This document shows, piece after piece, positions 8,506-20,206 of a DNA stretch of 20,206 bases. This stretch comes from a virus. Position 1 is the stretch's first letter; every line of letters begins with the position of its first letter. A program made the translations under genes and the position numbers. The notes under the pieces were generated by a model. It saw only the letters and a list, made by a program, of their open reading frames with translations, did no database searches and was not told where the DNA came from. The DNA lies in IMG/VR virus record IMGVR_UViG_3300024519_000027, positions 1 through 20,206 of that record. One strand, written 5' to 3'.

Positions 8506-9228
8506 TTATTCTGCAAAAAATCCTACAGGCTCTTGAAGATTGCGCATCTTCTCTTCCATCTCTTGCTCCATCGCTTCTCCATTGGCCCACATCGAGTCCC
8601 CGTCCATGGCAAAACTGCCAGATGCCCCTGGTTTCTCAGAAAATTTCATCCTAATCCCAGCCAGTGTCTTCATGGCTTGGGCCAATGCATAATTCCTAAA
8701 CACCCTCGTCTCATAATTAGTCATATAGCTAATCTCCATATCCTTCGATATATACACAACCAATACTTTTGATCCTGCGCTTGGCAGCGGACTTATCACC
8801 AATGCTCTCTTAGAGCGATCCCACTCCCAATCTCGTTCAGACGACGTCACCTGCTTGGACAATTCCCTATACTGCATATATTGCACCAATGTAGAAAATA
8901 TGTTCCCGCCAGTCCCACCTGAAACCCATGTGTATGGATTTATCTCTACATCAGCCCAACTGTACATATTTTGAATGCTATCAGACTCAATCTCGAATAC
9001 CACATCTACTACAGAATCAACGTCTGTAGCTATCAGTGCCTCAGCTACCTCTCTAGTACCAGCTAGCGTTACCAGAACAGACTTACTCTGACCTACCCAT
9101 GACTGCCACCACTCCTTAGCGTCCCGTATACTGTCGTCGACATGATCTTTTGTTAGCTCTACACCTACAGTTCCAAATCCAAGTTTTCTACAAATCCATT
9201 CTCCAATTTGTGCCTCAGTAAATCGCAT
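8506..9228 (-). CDS. Putative head-tail connector (neck) protein
   Basis: 240 residues. The N-terminus, FTEAQIGEWICRKLGFGTVGVELTKDHVDDSIRDA, fits the start of adaptor-type proteins with a small helical domain. A middle beta-rich part follows (about 50-175), and the C-terminus is helical (RNYALAQAMKTLAGIRMKF and then an acidic coiled coil EAMEQEMEEKMRNL), as in neck/adaptor proteins next to the portal. ATG 9228 overlaps or abuts the preceding stop (TAAACATG), with AAGGGA upstream. Located after the capsid cluster, it would join the portal to the tail. Family assignment is by pattern and position only. Confidence 0.62.
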   Translation of the reverse strand: MRFTEAQIGEWICRKLGFGTVGVELTKDHVDDSIRDAKEWWQSWVGQSKSVLVTLAGTREVAEALIATDVDSVVDVVFEIESDSIQNMYSWADVEINPYTWVSGGTGGNIFSTLVQYMQYRELSKQVTSSERDWEWDRSKRALVISPLPSAGSKVLVVYISKDMEISYMTNYETRVFRNYALAQAMKTLAGIRMKFSEKPGASGSFAMDGDSMWANGEAMEQEMEEKMRNLQEPVGFFAE

Positions 9229-9230
9229 GT

Positions 9231-9986
9231 TTACTTTCCCTTCTTTGGAGCCTTCTTCTTAGACTTACCCTTAGTATCCTCTTTGCCGTCAGGCGACTTC
9301 TCTCCGGTCAATATCTCATACACAGAGTCATTGATCTTCTTCATTATGTCAAATATGCTAGTCTCTCTAATTCCAACTCTTTTCAACGCCTTCAATGCAA
9401 CATCTGAAATCTCACCAATTACGCCGTTTAGCTGTGACGCGTCCATCTCGTCAGTTGTAATAATCGCCGTCTTAATATCATCTGGCAAATTATCAACGTC
9501 TATAGATGAATCAGGATCTGCGACCTCTTTCTTAGGCTCCTTTTTAGGTTCCTCTTTAGGTTCCTTTTTGGCAGGCTTACTCTTTTTGCTATCTTCACCG
9601 TCTTTATCTTTATACTCAGCATCTGATGCATTCTTATCAATTGGCTCAGCACCTGTATTGGACGAAGATGGATCGCCAGCCTCTGACATTGCAGCAAGTT
9701 TATTTTTAATCCTTGCATCCAGCGAGTTGTCGTCCGCTGTGTCATTAAGCTGGTTATCTATCTCTACGCTCATTTTTTCGTCCAACGAAGAGAACAAATA
9801 TAATTGCTCAGAGCAAAACCTAGTCCCCCCGTTGGATTCCCTTACAATTATTCCCGTTGGAACAACAGACATCACATGACCCTTCGTCACTGAGGCACCC
9901 ATTTTGGTAGACACTTCGATCTCTTCTCCATCTACAAACGCATTAAATGGCACCATATTGTCTAGCCGTCTTTCGTGTTCCAACAT
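9231..9986 (-). CDS. Lys/Glu-rich head-region protein, 251 aa
   Basis: Starts at ATG 9986 with a strong AGGAGG six bases upstream that overlaps the previous gene's TAG. The N-terminal part (about 10-75) looks like a small beta domain (FNAFVDGEEIEVSTKMG ... GIIVRESNGG). A long low-complexity linker follows, with KKEPKEEPKKEPKKEV repeats near residues 135-155. A helical segment (about 165-225) leads to a Lys-rich tail (KSKKKAPKKGK). It lies between the acidic zinc-finger gene and the neck candidate. It is probably a virion or head-assembly protein; no specific function is recognised. Confidence 0.7.
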   Translation of the reverse strand: MLEHERRLDNMVPFNAFVDGEEIEVSTKMGASVTKGHVMSVVPTGIIVRESNGGTRFCSEQLYLFSSLDEKMSVEIDNQLNDTADDNSLDARIKNKLAAMSEAGDPSSSNTGAEPIDKNASDAEYKDKDGEDSKKSKPAKKEPKEEPKKEPKKEVADPDSSIDVDNLPDDIKTAIITTDEMDASQLNGVIGEISDVALKALKRVGIRETSIFDIMKKINDSVYEILTGEKSPDGKEDTKGKSKKKAPKKGK

Positions 9987-9996
9987 CCAAAACCTC

Positions 9997-10893
9997 CTAG
10001 TGCTTATCCTGAATATGTTTAATCATTCCAAGTTCGGTTTTGAGGATTTTTTCATCCCCCTCACTCTTACATTTTAAACATAAAAAGCTCCCATTTGCTA
10101 GCTTCTCGTACTCAATATCAGAAGATTCCTCCTCTTCTTCGTCTTCTTCGTCCTCGTCTTCATCATCCTCATCTTCACTGAGATCTTCACTTAGCTCTTC
10201 GTCTTCTTCTTCCAGCTCTTCTTCGTCTTCGTCATCTTCTAGCTCTTCGTCATCTTCTTCGCATTCTTCGTCTTCCAGTTCATCTTCTTCTACTACTTTG
10301 CGAGATATTTCAACAATGTCATCGTCCGTGTTCAATTCGCCGTCTTCTCCAGGATCTACAGTAGCTATCATGATACCCACTTCTACTTCTAGTGGTTCGT
10401 CATCTCCATGCTCTTCTACTTCTGGCTCTCCCTCTATAGGCTCTTCAGCTGGCTCTTCTTCGTCCTCTTCAGGTTCTACTGGCTCTTCATCTACTAGCTC
10501 TTCTGGCTCTTCTGTCTCTTCTTCCACGAACTCAAGTTCATCTATCGCTTCTTCTTCAGGCTCTTCAACGACAACTTCTTCCTCTATGTCATCAGCCCTG
10601 TCTAACATCAACTGTACAATCATCTCGTGGCTGCGTAAAAGACCCCCACAGTCTTTTCCCAAAACATCTGGGTCTGGAACCTCAATAATAGGCTCTGCTA
10701 CTTCTACAATAAACCCAGCGTCCACAGGCGCGCTCATGTCAATCTCTTCATCAACCTTGCTTATCTTCTTTGGCTCAAAAGGAATAACTACATACTCTAT
10801 AATATCAGGCAACCCATTCGGCCTGCTGACTTTTCTAACGCCTTCATGTGTACATTTCTTCTCATAAACCCGCGTCAACATATAACTTTTCAT
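9997..10893 (-). CDS. Extremely acidic protein with C-terminal C2H2-type zinc finger
   Basis: 298 residues from ATG 10893, chosen for its AAGGAG seven bases upstream. The longer frame to 10956 would run through the terminator stem. Residues about 1-100 form a mixed N-terminal domain (LTRVYEKKCTHEGVRKV...). Residues about 105-265 are almost entirely Glu/Asp with a few Pro/Val. The last 30 residues hold CLKC, 17 residues, H-x4-H, a C2H2-like finger ending at the C-terminus. It directly follows the capsid gene. Comparable placement suggests a head decoration or accessory protein, or an acidic DNA mimic; both are inference. An inverted repeat copy lies in its coding sequence (10527..10540). Confidence 0.75.
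   Translation of the reverse strand: MKSYMLTRVYEKKCTHEGVRKVSRPNGLPDIIEYVVIPFEPKKISKVDEEIDMSAPVDAGFIVEVAEPIIEVPDPDVLGKDCGGLLRSHEMIVQLMLDRADDIEEEVVVEEPEEEAIDELEFVEEETEEPEELVDEEPVEPEEDEEEPAEEPIEGEPEVEEHGDDEPLEVEVGIMIATVDPGEDGELNTDDDIVEISRKVVEEDELEDEECEEDDEELEDDEDEEELEEEDEELSEDLSEDEDDEDEDEEDEEEEESSDIEYEKLANGSFLCLKCKSEGDEKILKTELGMIKHIQDKH
10527..10540 (-). repeat. Inverted repeat, copy E (within a gene)
   Basis: Minus strand TGAACT-TG-AGTTCG, encoding ELEF within the acidic protein. 13 of 14 bases match the intergenic copies. It may be coincidental in a Glu-rich sequence. Confidence 0.4.
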
Positions 10894-10906
10894 ATTTTTT
10901 CTCCTT

Positions 10907-10946
10907 AAAAAAAAGGGGCAAGGCCGATTCCTCGACCCGGCCCCTC
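10907..10946 (-). terminator. Rho-independent terminator after the capsid gene
   Basis: In gene direction: AGGGGC, a GC-rich interior with CGG...CGG, GCCCCT, then eight T. The stem closes with at least six pairs and is immediately followed by the U-run. The T-run ends at 10907, next to AAGGAG, the binding site of the next gene (start 10893). It probably makes the abundant capsid message end here, with partial read-through into downstream genes. Confidence 0.85.
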
Positions 10947-10957
10947 TCAAACCCAAA

Positions 10958-10972
10958 GCGCAACTAGTGCGC
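10958..10972 (-). repeat. Short hairpin GCGCA-loop-TGCGC after the capsid gene
   Basis: GCGCA-CTAGT-TGCGC (5-bp arms, 5-nt loop) between the capsid stop and the terminator stem. It may help protect the 3' end of the capsid message or be part of terminator folding. Confidence 0.4.
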
Positions 10973-10982
10973 CACTACACTC

Positions 10983-12602
10983 TTACAGAGTAGTAGTTAC
11001 AGTCGGTAGACCACTTACGTTGATCACACCGTAGTACTCAGGACGCAACATCTTAGTTGCATAGCGAGTACGTACACCTTTCGAGAATCTGAACGTATCA
11101 GGATTCAAGAAAGTAGGAGTGACTTGCAGTGGCACATATGGTGCATAGACATAACCAGCATCCAGGTAAGAATTACCCTTCAATCCAACAAGAATCTGTG
11201 TAGATGTCATGTAAGGATCTTGGTATACTGCATATTTTCTCAGCAGAGTTCCGATTCTAACGATACCATAATCGGCAGTGATAGGACCGTACGATGGGGA
11301 CTTAATGTTCTGCTCGATAGAAGCAAAATCGCCATGCGTAGAAAGCTGATCAAGCAACCCGCCAATACCAGGAGGAACTACCAGGAAGTTCGCGCCCTGG
11401 CGTCCAGAAGTCCTATGAATCTCGGCAGAAACTGCACTGATTTGAGTCAGCATCTTGCGGATGGACTCAATCTCACCAGGAACGGTACCGGAGTAAGTGT
11501 AAGCAATCGAGTGTGCCGCATTAGCAACTAAGTCACCAATAATCTCACGATCGACTTCCAACATAACTTCGTTAGCAAAGTTAGAAACAAGCTCCTGCTC
11601 CACGTCCATACCATGTTGAGCCTTCATGTCGTCAACGGCTTCTACAGTCCAGTTAGCTTTAAGCTTACGACTCTCAGCTTGAACTGGCACAGAGGAAATC
11701 TCTAGGCCAATACTAGGTACTACGGCTCCAGTTGTATCGCCAACTAGCTCGAAATTCACAAAGTACTGAACATAAATGACAGTGTTGCTTGCGAATGGGC
11801 TATTTGTTCCAGCGGTACCAGCTGCATTCACAGACCAGTTACCAGTCGTCACGTCAAATGTTCCAACGGTGTTAGTATTCGCTGTGTTATCAACTAAATT
11901 AGTAGTTACAGCTGTTTGATCCAATGTCGCAATTACTTCTACAGGTGCACTAGCTGCATCAGCGTCGAGCATTCTGTAATATACCTTCACGTAGAAAGTA
12001 CGTTGTCCAGCAGTCGCAGGCGCTCTAATAGGACTCCACTCAGGAATTCTAGCATTTGCAGTACCCTGTGTAATTGCCGTGGCCGTTCCAACACCAGTGT
12101 CAGTACAAATCGCATCATAGTCTACAAACTCAGAGCTGTAGTATTTTGCAAAGTTCTGGTTCAAGTTATCGCCAGCGTCCAATTCGCCGTCATACGCCAT
12201 CGTAGTAGGTGTATTAGAAATAGCACCCTGAGGAATCTTGCTGCCCTTGCGGCCTTCGTACTTTTTCTCAAAGTAGAATACTCCACCGATAGGTGCGCTC
12301 ATTGGCTGTACTGATACCAATTGATTGGCAATCAGGTTAGGGTAAACCCTGCGCAGGATAGGAAAGATAAACTTCGTGAACGATCCTGTGTTGGTGCTAA
12401 GTGTATCCTCATTAAACGATTTGATATGATTCATTTCGTTCTCTAAAAGAATAGCAGTTGTCTTCTTCAAATAACCACGGTCATGCTCAGTTGGGATGCC
12501 CTTCAGCATTTTGCCCCATTTATTAACACATCCGGCTACGTATGAGTCGTCATGGACTTTATCGCCCGTTGCCTCAAACATTTCTCTCGCTTCTGTACTC
12601 AT
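10983..12602 (-). CDS. Major capsid protein (T4 gp23-like)
   Basis: 539 residues from ATG 12602, with AAGGAG seven bases upstream. The conserved block ILRRVYPNLIANQLVSVQPM (about residues 76-95) is the hallmark start of the gp23-type HK97-fold capsid domain. ILLENE near residue 51 corresponds to T4's IFENQ. Residues about 160-320 form a Thr/Ala/Asn-rich beta insertion, followed by KANWTVEAVDDMKAQHGMDVE and the C-terminal core. T4 gp23 loses its first 65 residues to the prohead protease; here Glu54 (LLE) and Glu65 (FNE) are candidate cut sites. The neighbours (protease-scaffold just upstream, terminator just downstream) fit a highly expressed capsid gene. Confidence 0.95.
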   Translation of the reverse strand: MSTEAREMFEATGDKVHDDSYVAGCVNKWGKMLKGIPTEHDRGYLKKTTAILLENEMNHIKSFNEDTLSTNTGSFTKFIFPILRRVYPNLIANQLVSVQPMSAPIGGVFYFEKKYEGRKGSKIPQGAISNTPTTMAYDGELDAGDNLNQNFAKYYSSEFVDYDAICTDTGVGTATAITQGTANARIPEWSPIRAPATAGQRTFYVKVYYRMLDADAASAPVEVIATLDQTAVTTNLVDNTANTNTVGTFDVTTGNWSVNAAGTAGTNSPFASNTVIYVQYFVNFELVGDTTGAVVPSIGLEISSVPVQAESRKLKANWTVEAVDDMKAQHGMDVEQELVSNFANEVMLEVDREIIGDLVANAAHSIAYTYSGTVPGEIESIRKMLTQISAVSAEIHRTSGRQGANFLVVPPGIGGLLDQLSTHGDFASIEQNIKSPSYGPITADYGIVRIGTLLRKYAVYQDPYMTSTQILVGLKGNSYLDAGYVYAPYVPLQVTPTFLNPDTFRFSKGVRTRYATKMLRPEYYGVINVSGLPTVTTTL

Positions 12603-12633
12603 CTCAATTCTCCTTCAGTCGTAGTTGTGGCGG

Positions 12634-14253
12634 TCATTCACTTACGCCCGCCATTCGTGCCATGAAGTCCATGTCATTGCCAAGGTCGTCTTCCTTGTCT
12701 GCATTTCTATGTTCTTCGTTTAACAGTTTGTTCTCTCTCTCTTCGAGCCCACTATTTCCACGCATCAATTTCTTGCGCGCGTCCGTGATTTGCTCACGAG
12801 AAATACGTCCTGTTCCCTGCTCCGTCACCAGCTTGTCAACTACGGCCTTGGTGCTTGCGCCTTCCATAAGCCCTATCAGCTCTCTACCATTAGGCAATCC
12901 AACAACCCTTTTATGCTTGTAAAGTTCAAAACTATGTCGCTCTTCGGCTTCCTTAGATTCATCTAACGCTACCTTAAGCTCAGTCTCGACCTCACTCACA
13001 CGGCTCTCAGCATCTTTTCGCTGATTATCTGCCTCCATGCCAACTTTTACAGCTTTCCTCATTTTAACGTCCAGCGATTCAACCCTCTCAGTAAGGAGGG
13101 ATACCCTCTCACGCATTGCTGCGTTTTCTTCTCTTATCTTCATATCCTCTGGGGATATTTGCTCTTCTGTTCTAGCAGGCAGATCCCTTAGGATTGCTGC
13201 CAACTTCTCTTTCGCGTCCTCTAAGCTAACGAATTGGTGCTTGGATACGAGCTTCCTAATAGACTCAGCCATGTAATGCCCTGAGATCTCTTTCTCTATA
13301 TAAGCTGCACACTCATGCTTAATCGCCATCTCAGCACTCTTATCAGCACTATCTCTTGCTTCTGCTACTTCAAGATCCTTAGCTTTAGATGCATCGATAA
13401 TAGCTTGCTCATCCTCAGATGCCCTAAATGATGCTACCATCTCAAAGATAGCTGACAGCATAGCCTTCGCCCCGCCCATTTCTGGATCTGCGTTAAACTC
13501 TTCAGTCAACTCATTAGACAAGTCTTCTCTTGCCTCAATCAAACTCTTAGCAAGTTGCTTCTCAAATGACTCAATCATTACCTCGCGCAACTTATCATTC
13601 GATTCCTTGATAGCCTCGTCAACACCCTTTCCAACTTTAAGCTTGGCCTTGGCGATGGCGTCCTCTTGCAACGTAGCAGCTATCTGTGGAAATTCCTCAA
13701 GGAACATATTGGCAATATCAAGCCGATCCTCTTCAGTGTCTACGTCCTCAGTAAAGAACCCAGGCACTGCCGTTATAACTGCTGGGTCTGCGACGAAATC
13801 CCAAGTCTTCAAAATGAAATCGTCCTGAACAACTTCACCCTCCATCTTAGGGTCATTAGACGGCTTCGTTGATCCAAATCCACGAGAAGAAACAGGTACT
13901 GGTATTCCAGCCTCCATAAAAGACTTTATCAGCTTTCCTGCTCTGTTATTCAGTACCACTGCTTCACCTATTACTATTCCATCCTTTATTTTCAAAGACG
14001 TCATAGCATGCGAAACATCCCACAGTGATGTCTTGCCTGATTCTGGATGATCAACTGTTCCGAGTACCCGCCTATTGGAAAGATCCTCTTGAAGTCTATC
14101 AATCTCTCGCTGCATTATAGCTTCTGGGTAAATACGTCCGTTAAGGGTTGGAACACCTATGCGCCCGAATTCACCTCTAACAATTACTGTATTGCCCTTA
14201 GACTCTACTAGTGACAATTGCACTTGACTAGATTCAATTAACTGCTTTGGCAT
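12634..14253 (-). CDS. Prohead protease fused to scaffold-like coiled-coil domain
   Basis: 539 residues from ATG 14253. The start is chosen because AAGGA lies eight bases upstream, the previous gene ends 4 nt upstream, and family similarity begins here (MPKQLIESSQVQLSLVE). Residues 1-170 match T4 gp21-type prohead proteases (MEROPS S80): VRGEFG, GRIYP, TVDHPES with putative catalytic His69, and VSSRG with putative Ser122 or Ser123. Residues about 180-500 are long charged helices with coiled-coil spacing, as in the gp22 core scaffold. In T4 these are two genes; here they form one polypeptide, as in some other phages. It would build the prohead core, then cut itself and head proteins after Leu/Ile-x-Glu. 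Confidence 0.88.
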   Translation of the reverse strand: MPKQLIESSQVQLSLVESKGNTVIVRGEFGRIGVPTLNGRIYPEAIMQREIDRLQEDLSNRRVLGTVDHPESGKTSLWDVSHAMTSLKIKDGIVIGEAVVLNNRAGKLIKSFMEAGIPVPVSSRGFGSTKPSNDPKMEGEVVQDDFILKTWDFVADPAVITAVPGFFTEDVDTEEDRLDIANMFLEEFPQIAATLQEDAIAKAKLKVGKGVDEAIKESNDKLREVMIESFEKQLAKSLIEAREDLSNELTEEFNADPEMGGAKAMLSAIFEMVASFRASEDEQAIIDASKAKDLEVAEARDSADKSAEMAIKHECAAYIEKEISGHYMAESIRKLVSKHQFVSLEDAKEKLAAILRDLPARTEEQISPEDMKIREENAAMRERVSLLTERVESLDVKMRKAVKVGMEADNQRKDAESRVSEVETELKVALDESKEAEERHSFELYKHKRVVGLPNGRELIGLMEGASTKAVVDKLVTEQGTGRISREQITDARKKLMRGNSGLEERENKLLNEEHRNADKEDDLGNDMDFMARMAGVSE

Positions 14254-14257
14254 TCCA

Positions 14258-14476
14258 TTATCCTTTTTTACCTGTCTTGCCTCGCCATCGCCTGAACGAT
14301 GTTCTTGCAATTGGGTTGCGGTCGAGCTTTCTTTTCGCTTCAGGCGAGACTTTTCTCTTCGTTTTTTTCCCATCTATTCTAGCAGCTTTCTTCAGCGAAT
14401 CAAAACCAGCCATCTCTTTACGCCCCGAGGAAGTGCCAGTGCGACGATGCCACACGGCCTCCCCAAGACGGCTCAT
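14258..14476 (-). CDS. Small very basic protein, 72 aa
   Basis: Its ATG overlaps the preceding stop (TAATG at 14478..14474) and its TAA lies 4 nt before the protease start, so it fills the space exactly. It is strongly basic: Lys/Arg account for about a third of residues, with KKTKRKVSPEAKRKLDR and a GKTGKKG end. A competing frame (protease extended to 14373) overlaps it but lacks a binding site. Basic peptides in this position could be prohead core or DNA-condensing proteins; no family is recognised, so that is inference. Confidence 0.68.
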   Translation of the reverse strand: MSRLGEAVWHRRTGTSSGRKEMAGFDSLKKAARIDGKKTKRKVSPEAKRKLDRNPIARTSFRRWRGKTGKKG

Positions 14477-15516: not shown

Positions 15517-16378
15517 TTTTTTGCTCCTCGTTGTCGTTGTGTTGTGATCTACCCTTTACATATGCAGTCACTACAGCCATTATTTTTGCCCGCTCAGCAA
15601 GCCCGTCGTGTGCTTCTGCTATGCGCCTGACATCCTCAGTTCGCATCAACTTTTCGGCCCTGGCAAGCGAGGTACTAATGACCTGCGCTTCAACTTTCAA
15701 CGATTCACAGATTGCACTAAAGAATTCATCCTGATCACTATCAAACACCATATTAGAGCACTCGTCAACTATTCCGTCACTTAATTTAGCAATAATATTT
15801 ATAGCTTCTCTAAGCTCGTCCTCAAATTCTGACAATTTAGACGCCGCGATCTTGGAGAACTTAGTAGATGGAAATGGTGATTCAATCTCCCTGATCCCGC
15901 CATACATCGCAGTTCTAATCTTCTCCTGGTTGGCCTCGTACATTGTATACCAACCACCATCTTCCGCTGCTTCTTCTACTTTAGACAACACATCTGATAT
16001 CCAATAGTCCTCATCGCTGTCTATCATCTGTGCTACATCACGAACTTGAGTTCGTGACATTTCTTCTCCATCTACAGCTGCTTCTACCAATGCCCTAAGC
16101 TGCCCAGCAATAAAACAAGGCATATCCTCGTCTCTAATCACTGGTATATCAGTTGTAGCCTCTGACTTTATATCATTGACGCTTTCGCCCTTTACAGCAT
16201 AAGTAATCTTCATCATGCTTCCGTTACTGTCAATTGCATATGCGTGATCATCTTGCGTAGCTAACACTCGTACTGGAGTATCACCAAAATGCTCCTGTAT
16301 AGCACTGTTAATCACTAACGTCCTATGCTCTAAGCTGGACTTAAACTTTTTATCAATCTCACTTCCCTGGATGTACAT
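15509..16378 (-). CDS. Hypothetical head-region protein, 289 aa
   Basis: Starts at ATG 16378 inside the end of the portal gene (20-nt overlap), with AAGGA nine bases upstream. The N-terminal part (about 1-80) looks alpha/beta (VRVLATQDDHAYAIDSNGSMMKITYAV). The rest is mainly helical and acidic. No family is recognised; the location between portal and prohead core genes suggests a head-assembly role. Around residue 107 there is an internal ATG (16060) with GGAG five bases upstream, immediately followed by a perfect 20-bp inverted repeat. This could allow a shorter C-terminal product of 183 residues. Confidence 0.75.
   Translation of the reverse strand: MYIQGSEIDKKFKSSLEHRTLVINSAIQEHFGDTPVRVLATQDDHAYAIDSNGSMMKITYAVKGESVNDIKSEATTDIPVIRDEDMPCFIAGQLRALVEAAVDGEEMSRTQVRDVAQMIDSDEDYWISDVLSKVEEAAEDGGWYTMYEANQEKIRTAMYGGIREIESPFPSTKFSKIAASKLSEFEDELREAINIIAKLSDGIVDECSNMVFDSDQDEFFSAICESLKVEAQVISTSLARAEKLMRTEDVRRIAEAHDGLAERAKIMAVVTAYVKGRSQHNDNEEQKNG
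16038..16057 (-). repeat. Perfect 20-bp inverted repeat, copy F (within a gene)
   Basis: TCACGAACT-TG-AGTTCGTGA on the plus strand: 9-bp arms around a 2-nt centre. It contains the same 14-bp core as the intergenic copies. It begins right after an internal ATG (16060..16058) with its own GGAG. It encodes SRTQVRD in the 289-residue protein. Confidence 0.7.
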
Positions 16379-19300
16379 GCTGTCTCGTCCTTTTTATTGT
16401 CTTGTCCAAGTTAACCACTTTAGACTCTAACCTATTTATCATTTTTACCATTTCTGGATTGCCTTGGCTAGCTTCTTGTAGCACCTTCTTAATATTATTA
16501 AGTTCTGCACTCATGTTAGACTCATTAGCCTCCTCTTCAGCAGGTGGCAATTCTTGTAATTCTGGGTACATCTTTATGATATCCGCCTGAGTCTCAGCCT
16601 CGCGCTTAGCATCTCGATCCCCTTCTTCATCCTTAGCCTTGGTAGCCAATAATGCGTCGTCTTCGCTTAGGTGCAGGATATGCTGCATTATCCAAGGCTT
16701 GCTCATCCATTCAGCCATACTACTAGCCAATGCCGCCTGAGCATTCATTACCTCTATTTGCTGCATCTCGAATATCGCCGATGGCACAGTCATCTTCAAT
16801 TGCCACTCTGTAGACCCTGGATCTATATTCAAAGCAGCCATATGTATACGTACTACCTTGCGCATGCCCATTATGAACTCTCGCTGTATACGCATACAGG
16901 CTCGAGCGAATCTTGCGTCCTGAGAAGCTAGTGTCTGAGAAGAGTCGCCTCCGTCATCATCCTTGGGCATCTTCAAAGACTTATACAGCTTGTTCTGGAA
17001 GTATTCCATCTCGTCTACCATGTTTATATCTAGGCCAGACATCACTTCAATGCGAGTGGACTCTTTTTGTCCTCTTGTTGGGATCCAAAGATCCTCATGA
17101 GCGGAATTACAAACTATTACACCGGCAGAAAGCCCGAATGTGTGGCATTTGTCGACTGTCAATGTATACGTATCTTCCCTCTCCACTAGACGTTCAACAG
17201 ACACAATCTTGTGATTAAAAGATAGCGCTGCTTCTTTGAACTCTCCAATGCCCCTATACCCGCGCGACTCAACAGCGCTAACCACTGAGTCCTTGCACAT
17301 TGGGTTAACTTTAGCACGAGGGTTTGCATCCACTATGGACTCAAATAAGCTGCCATTATTTATATGACCACCGATGTCTGCTATCGTCGCACAAGGGTTT
17401 TCCCTTATGAACAATTCCATCCCGCATATCACATTATCAGGGTAGTGCACCTTTGAACAATTTCTACCCTTGACCACTACATCTAGGCTCACAGATGATG
17501 GCTTCCCGGCCGAAAATGCAACCAATGCTGATGCCCTAAACTCTTCAAAACTATCAAACCCGTACATCCTATATGCATTCAGCAATAGATGCCTATGGAT
17601 TCCTGGGATGAACCTTTCGTCATTGTCCTCCCTTAGAATATCCATTGCTTGACCACTTTCGGCAGCCTTGGAAACATCCTCTGCACCAGCCATTGGGTTC
17701 TCTAATACTATATCCCTAACCGCAGCGATGAAATCTTCAGTAAATACATATTTCTTCTTCTCGCTCATGGCTTCTCTGTTTGCAGGAACAGCCCAGTGTG
17801 CCTTCATCATATCGCTACGTAAAACATTATTCTCAGCATGCTTGGAAGAATTATTATACTCTATTATGTGCTTGCTCGAATTTCTCTCTATATTCTGTCG
17901 GCTAATGCGAATTCTCTTTCGCTCCAAGTATGCCGGATCCCTGTGTAGCCTCTTCATCGTCCTAGATGCAGCATCGCGAAGACGCCTATCTAGGTCTTTA
18001 TCCACTTTTCTAAGCTCAGTCACCCTAGCTCCACCAATTTCCCCAAGCATACAATGATGAGAACAGTGATCCTCTCTGGTCATTGATTTCAATTCAGATG
18101 GATCATTATTAAGCTTATGCCTATCATGGTGTATAATTTTACCCTTTTCGTAAATACCAACAGCCTTTGCAACGACCCTATGCGTATAACGGTACCTTTT
18201 GCTAGCAGGATCATACACCATCTCATATCCCTGCAAACCTTTACCACTGGCTGTTACTGACAGCTTACGCCTCAATGGCATCATGGAATCCCCAGGTTCC
18301 AAGTTCTGAGCCTCTATAGTTGTGCCATCTCTTAATATGCACTTATGGTCCGGCGTTACCCTGAATGACTCCCCGTTATCCAAAGTAACTCTTACTAGCT
18401 CTGCGTCCTTCCTAGTCTTGCCTGCCCATATAACCTCGCCAGGTACAATCTTATTACCAGCATCCCTATCTACGCCATAAACCCATTGCTTTTTACCGAC
18501 CTCAAAAGCCTCTGCCATTTCAATGATGGTCTTTTCAGAACCATCTAATTGGGGCACTAACGTATCACCAGTAAGGCACATTACGTTATATTTAAGCTCT
18601 AATTGACCAGTGTTTGGGTCTATAAACTTCTTCTTCTTGAAGCCGTTCTTTACCTTACGCACCATAGCCATTGCTTCTCTAGGCGGAAGATCTCCAGTAT
18701 CTACATAGTAAGCAAACCTTGGCCCTCTAGTTAACTTCTGCACCAGTGCCGAATCCTCCATTAGCGTCAATCGCTTGAAGATCCATCTGGCCGCGTCATA
18801 AAAACTGAACCCGTACTGTGAATTCATGTTCTTGGATCTCAATCTCCAATGAACAACTTCCCACGGCCGGAAGAATATCAGCCTGGTTTTCTCTTCGTCC
18901 TTAACCCTTGGAAGACTACCACTGCTTAATTGCTTGCTAACAGCCTCATAATCGAAGTTAAATGTTCCCCTTACGTCCTGAACAAAACCCAGCAGTGCCC
19001 CTTTTTCGTCTACTATTCTTCGCATCGTAGGCGTTGGAAGCCAATTTAATCCTACTACACCCGCCTCATTGACTAATATTTCACCGAAACCATTGCCATA
19101 TTTACAGAGCGTCCTTACCGCTGGCCATATATCCTCGTCTATCCTAATTCTTCTATGCAATACGTCATCAATTATATCTCTAACTATTCTATCGTCTGAT
19201 GCTCCCCATATTGTCTTACCATGTACACTGTCTGGTATTGTAGAATCATCCGCAGCACGATCCAGAGCTTCGCTTGTAGTTGGATAATCGTCCATATTCT

Positions 19301-19505
19301 CGTAGTCAATGTAACGCAGCATCAGGTCTGTATCTATCGCTAATGTTCTACCTAATGACGATAGCCATGCGTCATTACCAAAACCAGACACACCCATCGT
19401 ATCCGTTTGAGCAGGAGCACTTACTGCTACTCCCCTGGCATCATCAACAATCTTAGCCTCTTTGTCATTGCTGTTTAGTCTTTTAATCCAGTCGCGCCAT
19501 GCCAT
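16359..19505 (-). CDS. Portal protein (T4 gp20-like) interrupted by an intein
   Basis: 1048 residues before splicing. The extein parts (residues 1-309 and 801-1048, 557 residues together) match gp20-type portals: an N-terminal clip/stem region with TRGPRFAYYVDTGDLP, KNGFKKKKFIDPNTGQL just before the intein, then HEDLWIPTRGQKESTRIEVMSG after it. The spliced length is close to T4 gp20 (524). Inserted between Met309 and Ser801 is a 491-residue intein with HNH endonuclease (separate entry). The start at 19505 has GGGAG upstream and lies six bases after the terminase stop. The portal forms the dodecameric DNA entry vertex and nucleates the prohead. Correct splicing is needed for function. Confidence 0.92.
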   Translation of the reverse strand: MAWRDWIKRLNSNDKEAKIVDDARGVAVSAPAQTDTMGVSGFGNDAWLSSLGRTLAIDTDLMLRYIDYENMDDYPTTSEALDRAADDSTIPDSVHGKTIWGASDDRIVRDIIDDVLHRRIRIDEDIWPAVRTLCKYGNGFGEILVNEAGVVGLNWLPTPTMRRIVDEKGALLGFVQDVRGTFNFDYEAVSKQLSSGSLPRVKDEEKTRLIFFRPWEVVHWRLRSKNMNSQYGFSFYDAARWIFKRLTLMEDSALVQKLTRGPRFAYYVDTGDLPPREAMAMVRKVKNGFKKKKFIDPNTGQLELKYNVMCLTGDTLVPQLDGSEKTIIEMAEAFEVGKKQWVYGVDRDAGNKIVPGEVIWAGKTRKDAELVRVTLDNGESFRVTPDHKCILRDGTTIEAQNLEPGDSMMPLRRKLSVTASGKGLQGYEMVYDPASKRYRYTHRVVAKAVGIYEKGKIIHHDRHKLNNDPSELKSMTREDHCSHHCMLGEIGGARVTELRKVDKDLDRRLRDAASRTMKRLHRDPAYLERKRIRISRQNIERNSSKHIIEYNNSSKHAENNVLRSDMMKAHWAVPANREAMSEKKKYVFTEDFIAAVRDIVLENPMAGAEDVSKAAESGQAMDILREDNDERFIPGIHRHLLLNAYRMYGFDSFEEFRASALVAFSAGKPSSVSLDVVVKGRNCSKVHYPDNVICGMELFIRENPCATIADIGGHINNGSLFESIVDANPRAKVNPMCKDSVVSAVESRGYRGIGEFKEAALSFNHKIVSVERLVEREDTYTLTVDKCHTFGLSAGVIVCNSAHEDLWIPTRGQKESTRIEVMSGLDINMVDEMEYFQNKLYKSLKMPKDDDGGDSSQTLASQDARFARACMRIQREFIMGMRKVVRIHMAALNIDPGSTEWQLKMTVPSAIFEMQQIEVMNAQAALASSMAEWMSKPWIMQHILHLSEDDALLATKAKDEEGDRDAKREAETQADIIKMYPELQELPPAEEEANESNMSAELNNIKKVLQEASQGNPEMVKMINRLESKVVNLDKTIKRTRQHVHPGK
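17106..18578 (-). mobile_element. Intein with HNH homing endonuclease in the portal gene
   Basis: Residues 310-800 of the portal frame. Splicing signs: Cys1 in CLTGDT, block B TPDH (residues 384-387), block F DKCHTFGLSAGVIVCN, terminal Asn800 and Ser+1. The penultimate residue is Cys799 instead of the usual His. The endonuclease is HNH type: HHDRHKLNNDP (from residue 459) and REDHCSHH, the classic phage form. After it come two related segments of about 72 residues (592-664 and 692-763), each with ENP near the start and GEF/EEF(R/K)xxAL near the end, probably DNA-binding modules. It is inserted immediately before the conserved LWIP region of the portal, a typical choice of a conserved site. 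Confidence 0.93.
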
Positions 19506-19511
19506 AATATA

Positions 19512-20206
19512 CTAGTCTCCCGATATTATTGTGTAACAGTCTATGTCGTCTGCTGCTGCTTCTGCCATTTCCCTAGCCTCGCCAACATCCAATTGATCCG
19601 CTGGGATAAATGGACTTACCCAAGCGTCTTTGTGTGTCCCCTTATTATTGGTACCACTGTTAAAGCCCATTGGCAAGCTTGATGAATTACTATATAACGC
19701 AAATACTGTACCAGCGCATGCGTCAGCCACGTCCTTCGATCCAGCCTCCGGATGGTCTATCTTCCCTTTAAGCCTATCGTACTCTAATTGTTTAACCTCT
19801 TCTATAAAAGGCTCGTACTTGTTATACCTTATCCTGCCCTCGTATATAGCTCTTTTTAATTCGTCATAAGGCTCTGTTGTTCTGTCAACAGACACTAAGT
19901 GTGGAGCTATGCCACGCCTTTTTACCTGTTGATGTAATTCAATATACATGTATGCATCAGATGACATCCCAGCGAACCTATACCCGTAAGCCTGTAATGA
20001 ATAAAGTAGCGTTCTAATATCAGGCATGTATATAGCCTCGCCCCTTGGAGGGTTTATCCTCATCATTACATCTATATAGTATGATGGTGCAGTCTCGTAG
20101 TACCTTCTACCATTGCCATCTCTTCTTGGTACCTCTACCATCTTCTCTATATGCCCTACGCAGAATCCAGTAGCGTCTCCTGATATACTAGTATCTATAT
20201 GACACC
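19512..20206 (-). CDS. terL: Terminase large subunit, C-terminal nuclease domain (partial)
   Basis: The frame stays open from the right edge (about 230 residues seen) to TAG at 19514. The ATG at 20141 is internal, since CHIDTSISGDATGFCVGHIE precedes it in frame. That segment holds the first catalytic Asp of the RNase H-fold nuclease (HIDxSxSGDATG). A second strand with SSDAYMYIELHQQVKRRG and the final acidic helix IDHPEAGSKDVADACAG complete the usual metal-binding set. The N-terminal ATPase lies outside the window. It packages DNA into the head through the portal encoded next, six bases downstream. The C-terminal tail (about 45 residues) is acidic. Confidence 0.95.
   Translation of the reverse strand, partial: CHIDTSISGDATGFCVGHIEKMVEVPRRDGNGRRYYETAPSYYIDVMMRINPPRGEAIYMPDIRTLLYSLQAYGYRFAGMSSDAYMYIELHQQVKRRGIAPHLVSVDRTTEPYDELKRAIYEGRIRYNKYEPFIEEVKQLEYDRLKGKIDHPEAGSKDVADACAGTVFALYSNSSSLPMGFNSGTNNKGTHKDAWVSPFIPADQLDVGEAREMAEAAADDIDCYTIISGD

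Follow-up and report, generated by a model that had tools for sequence, protein, structure and literature searches.

A putative class 1 intein in a T4-like phage portal gene, with two assisting residues that are mostly replaced together across its family

We analyzed a 20,206-base stretch of viral DNA (the window), the whole of a source record that is probably a fragment. Its T4-like portal gene is interrupted by an insert that is probably a homing-type class 1 intein in which two residues known to assist splicing have been replaced as a pair, with a block F histidine, His479, serving asparagine cyclisation. These residues, at block F position 4 (F:4, normally Asp) and the penultimate position (G:6, normally His), vary together across 237 distinct inteins of what is apparently a large, uncatalogued phage family. 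The coordination of Asn cyclisation with extein ligation in inteins is a long-standing problem, and a paired change of the two assisting residues, made apparently several times, provides natural material for studying it; in some cases Asp/His and Thr/Lys inteins can be compared within one portal polypeptide.

Table 1 Features of the portal ORF and its predicted intein (window positions; residues are those of the intein unless stated otherwise).
Feature	Position	Strand	Basis
T4-like portal (gp20 family) ORF with intein, 1048 aa	16359..19505	-	Portal_T4 E=3.1e-55, phrog_213
N-extein, portal residues 1-309	18579..19505	-	Alignment against intein-free portals
Intein, 491 residues, ORF residues 310-800	17106..18578	-	Translation, Pfam, NCBIfam, empty-site alignment
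C-extein, portal residues 801-1048	16362..17105	-	phrog_213 over 801-975
Cys1, first nucleophile (block A)	18576..18578	-	Sequence and empty-site alignment
Block B TPDH: Thr75 (B:7), His78 (B:10)	18345..18356	-	His in all aligned rows, both groups
HNH_3 endonuclease domain, residues 130-171, motif HHDRHKLNNDPSELKSMTREDHCSHH	18066..18191	-	Pfam HNH_3, PHROGs HNH families
Module copy 1, residues 276-352	17523..17753	-	Single copy in same-site inteins L003/L004
Module copy 2, residues 376-452, diverged tandem duplicate	17223..17453	-	BLAST E=3e-5 to copy 1
Thr472, F:4, normally Asp	17163..17165	-	Family alignment and Mtu RecA comparison
His479, block F position 13 (F:13)	17142..17144	-	Kept in 118/122 non-Asp/non-His inteins
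Cys490, penultimate (G:6), normally His; Cys799 of the ORF	17109..17111	-	Sequence
Asn491, terminal, cyclising residue	17106..17108	-	Sequence and empty-site alignment
Ser+1	17103..17105	-	Sequence and empty-site alignment

The portal ORF stays open over its full length, and the insert translates to exactly 491 residues, running from CLTGDT to VIVCN and followed by Ser+1 and AHEDLWIP. Pfam Intein_splicing matched residues 12-491 (E=9.6e-14), with the Portal_T4 match lying on both flanks of that domain, and NCBIfam intein_Nterm (TIGR01445) also matched (E=2.4e-11). The junction reads GQLELKYNVM^SAHEDLWIPTR in the window portal. Intein-free relatives carry the same junction without a gap (GQLDFRYNPL/SPHEDFWVPTR in L014-016 and GQLDFKYNPL/SPHEDFFIPTR in L020, with the slash marking the empty site), and because these portals align gap-free through it, both intein boundaries are fixed. 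The AlphaFold2 model of the intein had a mean pLDDT of 80.6, with the splicing blocks mostly at about 88 or more, and its top PDB matches were inteins (best E=2.7e-6), as expected of a Hint fold. A sequence-only reading of this DNA had described a 491-residue intein just ahead of HEDLWIP, with Cys1, a TxxH block B, a terminal Asn, Ser+1 and Cys799 instead of the penultimate His; all of this holds, and the intein-free portals it proposed to look for among relatives were found. Its further argument, that the portal is essential and the intein must splice, is reasonable, though a second portal gene could lie elsewhere given that the record is a 20-kb fragment.

On its sequence features, we file the element as a class 1 intein: Cys1, TPDH at residues 75-78, Asn491, Ser+1 and, in the AlphaFold2 model, the Hint fold are all present, and the residues typical of the class but not obligatory for it, F:4 Asp and G:6 His, are replaced by Thr472 and Cys490. 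Block F reads DTYTLTVDKCHTF, where the canonical comparison is VYDLTV..HNF; we take F:4, which precedes the F:13 His by seven residues, to correspond to Mtu RecA Asp422. Class 3, in which position 1 is not a nucleophile, was ruled out by the presence of Cys1, and both class 3 and a class 1/3 hybrid by the lack of the Trp(B:12)-Cys(F:4)-Thr(G:5) triplet, which was absent from the window intein and from all 233 family members tested.

Searching viral contigs with the intein sequence alone returned no match; relatives were obtained with a portal query (49 viral loci) and then with alignment-based searches, which extended the set to about 350. From these we extracted 237 distinct inteins under the conditions of Cys1, a terminal Asn and Ser, Thr or Cys at +1. 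Because extraction demanded these residues, their conservation is no evidence, and the block B His was not among the conditions. The rows stem from iterative searches that started within this family, and the frequencies below therefore do not represent inteins as a whole. Asp at F:4 was paired with a penultimate His in 108 of 109 cases, and any other F:4 residue with a non-His residue in 122 of 128, leaving one Asp/non-His and six non-Asp/His inteins, so that the rule was broken by 7 of 237 (Fisher p=6e-59, a value that ignores relatedness). With average-product correction and sequence weighting, F:4/G:6 was the top mutual-information pair among 10,011. Assembly errors could touch single sequences, without effect on this family pattern.

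Among the 122 non-Asp/non-His inteins, F:4 was Thr (80), Cys (35), Asn (6) or Ala (1). G:6 was commonly Lys (62), Ser (14), Cys (9), Arg (8) or Tyr (6), and more rarely Gln (5), Phe (4), Asn (4), Ala (3), Gly (3), Met (3) or Leu (1). At the portal site of the window, with Ser+1 as part of the pattern used to identify inteins there, 30 distinct inteins comprised 26 non-Asp/non-His, four Asp/His and no mixed cases, and the penultimate residue of the window intein's same-site relatives was Cys, Lys, Arg, Phe or Gln. We found no close relatives in sequenced isolate phages. The sequence-only reading had treated loss of the penultimate His as a trait of this intein and such inteins as uncommon, neither of which fits a family in which 123 of 237 distinct inteins lack that His. 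It also overlooked the F:4 replacement, the family-wide coupling and a duplicated module described below. Of the compensating residues that it suggested, we found no unique one; the block F His is a candidate. The F:13 His was kept in 118 of the 122 non-Asp/non-His inteins and lost in 29 of the 108 Asp/His inteins; of the 37 inteins without it, 33 had His at G:6. Among the 237 inteins, 233 retained one or both of these histidines and four lacked both. Asp at F:2 (residue 469), considered as a substitute acid, occurred in 101 of the 122 and in 54 of the 108 canonical inteins.

The converse of the window intein's state was also observed. In L003:738-1745, L018:1407-1829 and L020:6229-7236, at the portal site after DYENMDDYxET, the block F His is replaced (Ala, Glu, Ser) and the penultimate His is kept.

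The coupling could be historical, with a few ancestral lineages having carried both changes and mosaic evolution or poor tree resolution mimicking repeated joint change. We built a careful 58-row tree without the F:4, F:13 and G:6 columns. On it the non-Asp/non-His state required six changes, and a tree of the N-terminal half alone required five. A single origin appeared in 0 of 200 bootstrap trees, and a single non-Asp/non-His clade was rejected (delta lnL 56, AU p=0.0003). In favor of a historical explanation, inteins recombine, trees built from 112-155 columns have poor resolution, and an independent-pairs sign test had too few supported pairs for significance. Because the well-supported branches by themselves require no more than one or two joint switches, the number of switches is uncertain; we estimate about five to six, with weak support for individual nodes. 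Against it stand the rejection of a single clade, the top rank of F:4/G:6 after correction and the lack of mixed cases at the window's site, and we consider a purely historical coupling rather unlikely. Repeated swapping of two residues at the same time suggests that F:4 and G:6 act as a unit.

Other explanations concern the window intein itself. Cys490 might form a redox switch with Cys1 (or Cys478) that delays splicing until conditions in the cell become reducing. In intein folds, Cys1 lies close to the C-terminus of the intein, and a penultimate Cys occurs in nine distinct members of one clade. Control by disulfides is known for inteins (PMC4031507, PMC6195587), and PDB 3nzm was among the fold matches of the AlphaFold2 model. 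Same-site sister inteins nevertheless have Lys, Phe or Arg instead of Cys490, which makes such a switch improbable. The Cys478-Cys490 pair, seen in the three closest inteins, was rejected since most other Cys-penultimate relatives lack Cys478. Decay into a splicing-defective intein is a still weaker candidate, and we think it very improbable. Two canonical assisting residues are indeed replaced, and D164N and H182Q at both positions wreck splicing in PolB16, another class 1 intein (PMC10189870). The window ORF, however, is open, it belongs to a gene that should be essential, and the intein's nucleophiles and block B are preserved; about 120 distinct open sequences share its state while keeping the block B and F:13 histidines, which is not the pattern that decay gives. 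The earlier idea, that an intein canonical in other respects has lost its penultimate His in a single isolated event, is right in that this His is truly absent. It is contradicted by the family data, as F:4 has changed too and the state is common to nine other members of a well-supported same-site clade and to about 120 family members, and it retains almost no plausibility.

We therefore return to an intein with a paired replacement. Cys1, activated by the TPDH block, would begin with an N-S acyl shift, Ser+1 would take over the N-extein by transesterification, and cyclisation of Asn491 would free the intein; with the nucleophiles and block B intact, steps 1, 2 and 4 are expected to run as in class 1. 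Lacking F:4 Asp and G:6 His, the window intein would most likely rely on His479 for the chemistry of Asn cyclisation. A block F His can assume the role of the penultimate His, according to PMC5050341, which also describes a phage intein with a natural Gly at G:6 in which a Gly-to-His change slows splicing. F:4 is most often Asp, then Cys, then Trp (PMC4031507), and the single changes D164N and H182Q each nearly abolish PolB16 splicing (PMC10189870). In this family, F:4 Asp and G:6 His would work as a pair, either alone being of little use, and a G:6 freed from catalysis would drift through the dozen residues listed above. The broader proposition is that the two form one functional unit in the family's class 1 inteins, lost and regained together by lineages, and that a distinct subclass, marked by Thr or Cys at F:4, an unconstrained G:6 and a retained F:13 His and widespread among the T4-like portals of uncultured phages, cyclises Asn without either; we judge this about as likely as not.

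The sequence-only reading had also assigned the intein its own HNH domain, and our searches agree, with PHROGs HNH families and a marginal HNH_3 match (E=4.4e-5; 23.5 bits, 1.3 bits under the gathering cut-off of 24.8). Downstream, a module of about 77 residues is duplicated (score 59, where 1000 shuffles reached at most 44), with one copy each in the same-site inteins L003 and L004; that it binds DNA is possible, a guess on our part. Continued mobility is plausible, the HNH motif being intact by eye and site occupancy patchy, with empty alleles in L014-016 and L020. Spread of the element would presumably depend on cleavage of intein-free portal genes by the HNH domain, with DNA binding perhaps supplied by the duplicated module. 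Mini-inteins of 141-206 aa without an apparent endonuclease (L007:6810-7328, L018:1407-1829, L074:2312-2920 and L075:1025-1642) were found beside full-length same-site relatives, a pattern expected after homing loss.

The T4-like portal is a multi-site intein hotspot. Single ORFs of 1907-2124 aa in L032 (from 4798, on a contig shared with L065), L066 (from 2280) and L307 (from 1250) contain four inteins apiece. Those of L032/L065 and L066 are portals, in which canonical Asp/His and Thr/Lys or Thr/Cys inteins adjoin in one polypeptide. In the L063 ORF from 4059, two inteins at residues 315-1073 are separated by only 12 extein residues, and L054, L276 and L307 likewise have intein pairs spaced 12-15 residues apart. 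Together with the mini-inteins L007, L074 and L075, the family provides a large set of naturally varied inteins for protein engineering.

Elsewhere in the window, a partial ORF at 19512-20204 (-) contains HIDTSISGDATGF, resembling the L028/L038 intein site HIDTSISGD^STGF; the corresponding site is empty and has Ala. This ORF had no PHROGs match, and its position and motif suggest a terminase. After the portal, 8506-14373 (-) gave matches to a head maturation protease, a major head protein and a head-tail adaptor, and several ORFs between these head genes had no PHROGs match.

In the open-licence papers searched, neither this portal family nor joint replacement of F:4 and G:6 was described. Earlier publications do cover inteins that lack the penultimate His, inteins in phage portals and inteins with HNH domains (PMC5050341, PMC4031507). 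Among the closest known systems are mycobacteriophage inteins (Bethlehem RDF and others; Kelley et al. 2016, PMC5050341), which are also class 1, have Gly, Lys or Ser at G:6 instead of His, and led to the same proposal of compensation by the block F His; some phage inteins there lie in portal proteins. Unlike in the window family, we found no F:4 change or F:4/G:6 coupling in the searched passages of that article, where Cys, Arg, Phe, Tyr or Gln at G:6 go unmentioned; the phages are also different ones. The closest cellular relatives found, mostly GyrB/GyrA-type inteins of bacteria and archaea, have similar splicing blocks and carry an insert, but all 81 extracted carry F:4 Asp and G:6 His, and their main site is VEGDSAGG^SAKQ rather than a portal. 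Cyanobacterial-type DnaE inteins (PDB 7qil, 2keq) likewise lack the penultimate His and have the block F His, yet keep F:4 Asp; because these solved structures combine Asp at F:4 with Ser at G:6, the F:4/G:6 rule is not universal. The NrdJ-1 split intein (PDB 8ubs) gave the top PDB hit when the same-site profile was compared by sequence (E=2e-11) and was also a fold match, but it differs from the window intein in its block F, TYDIQT, which places Asp at F:4, in being split, and in its solved chain of 151 residues without an HNH domain.
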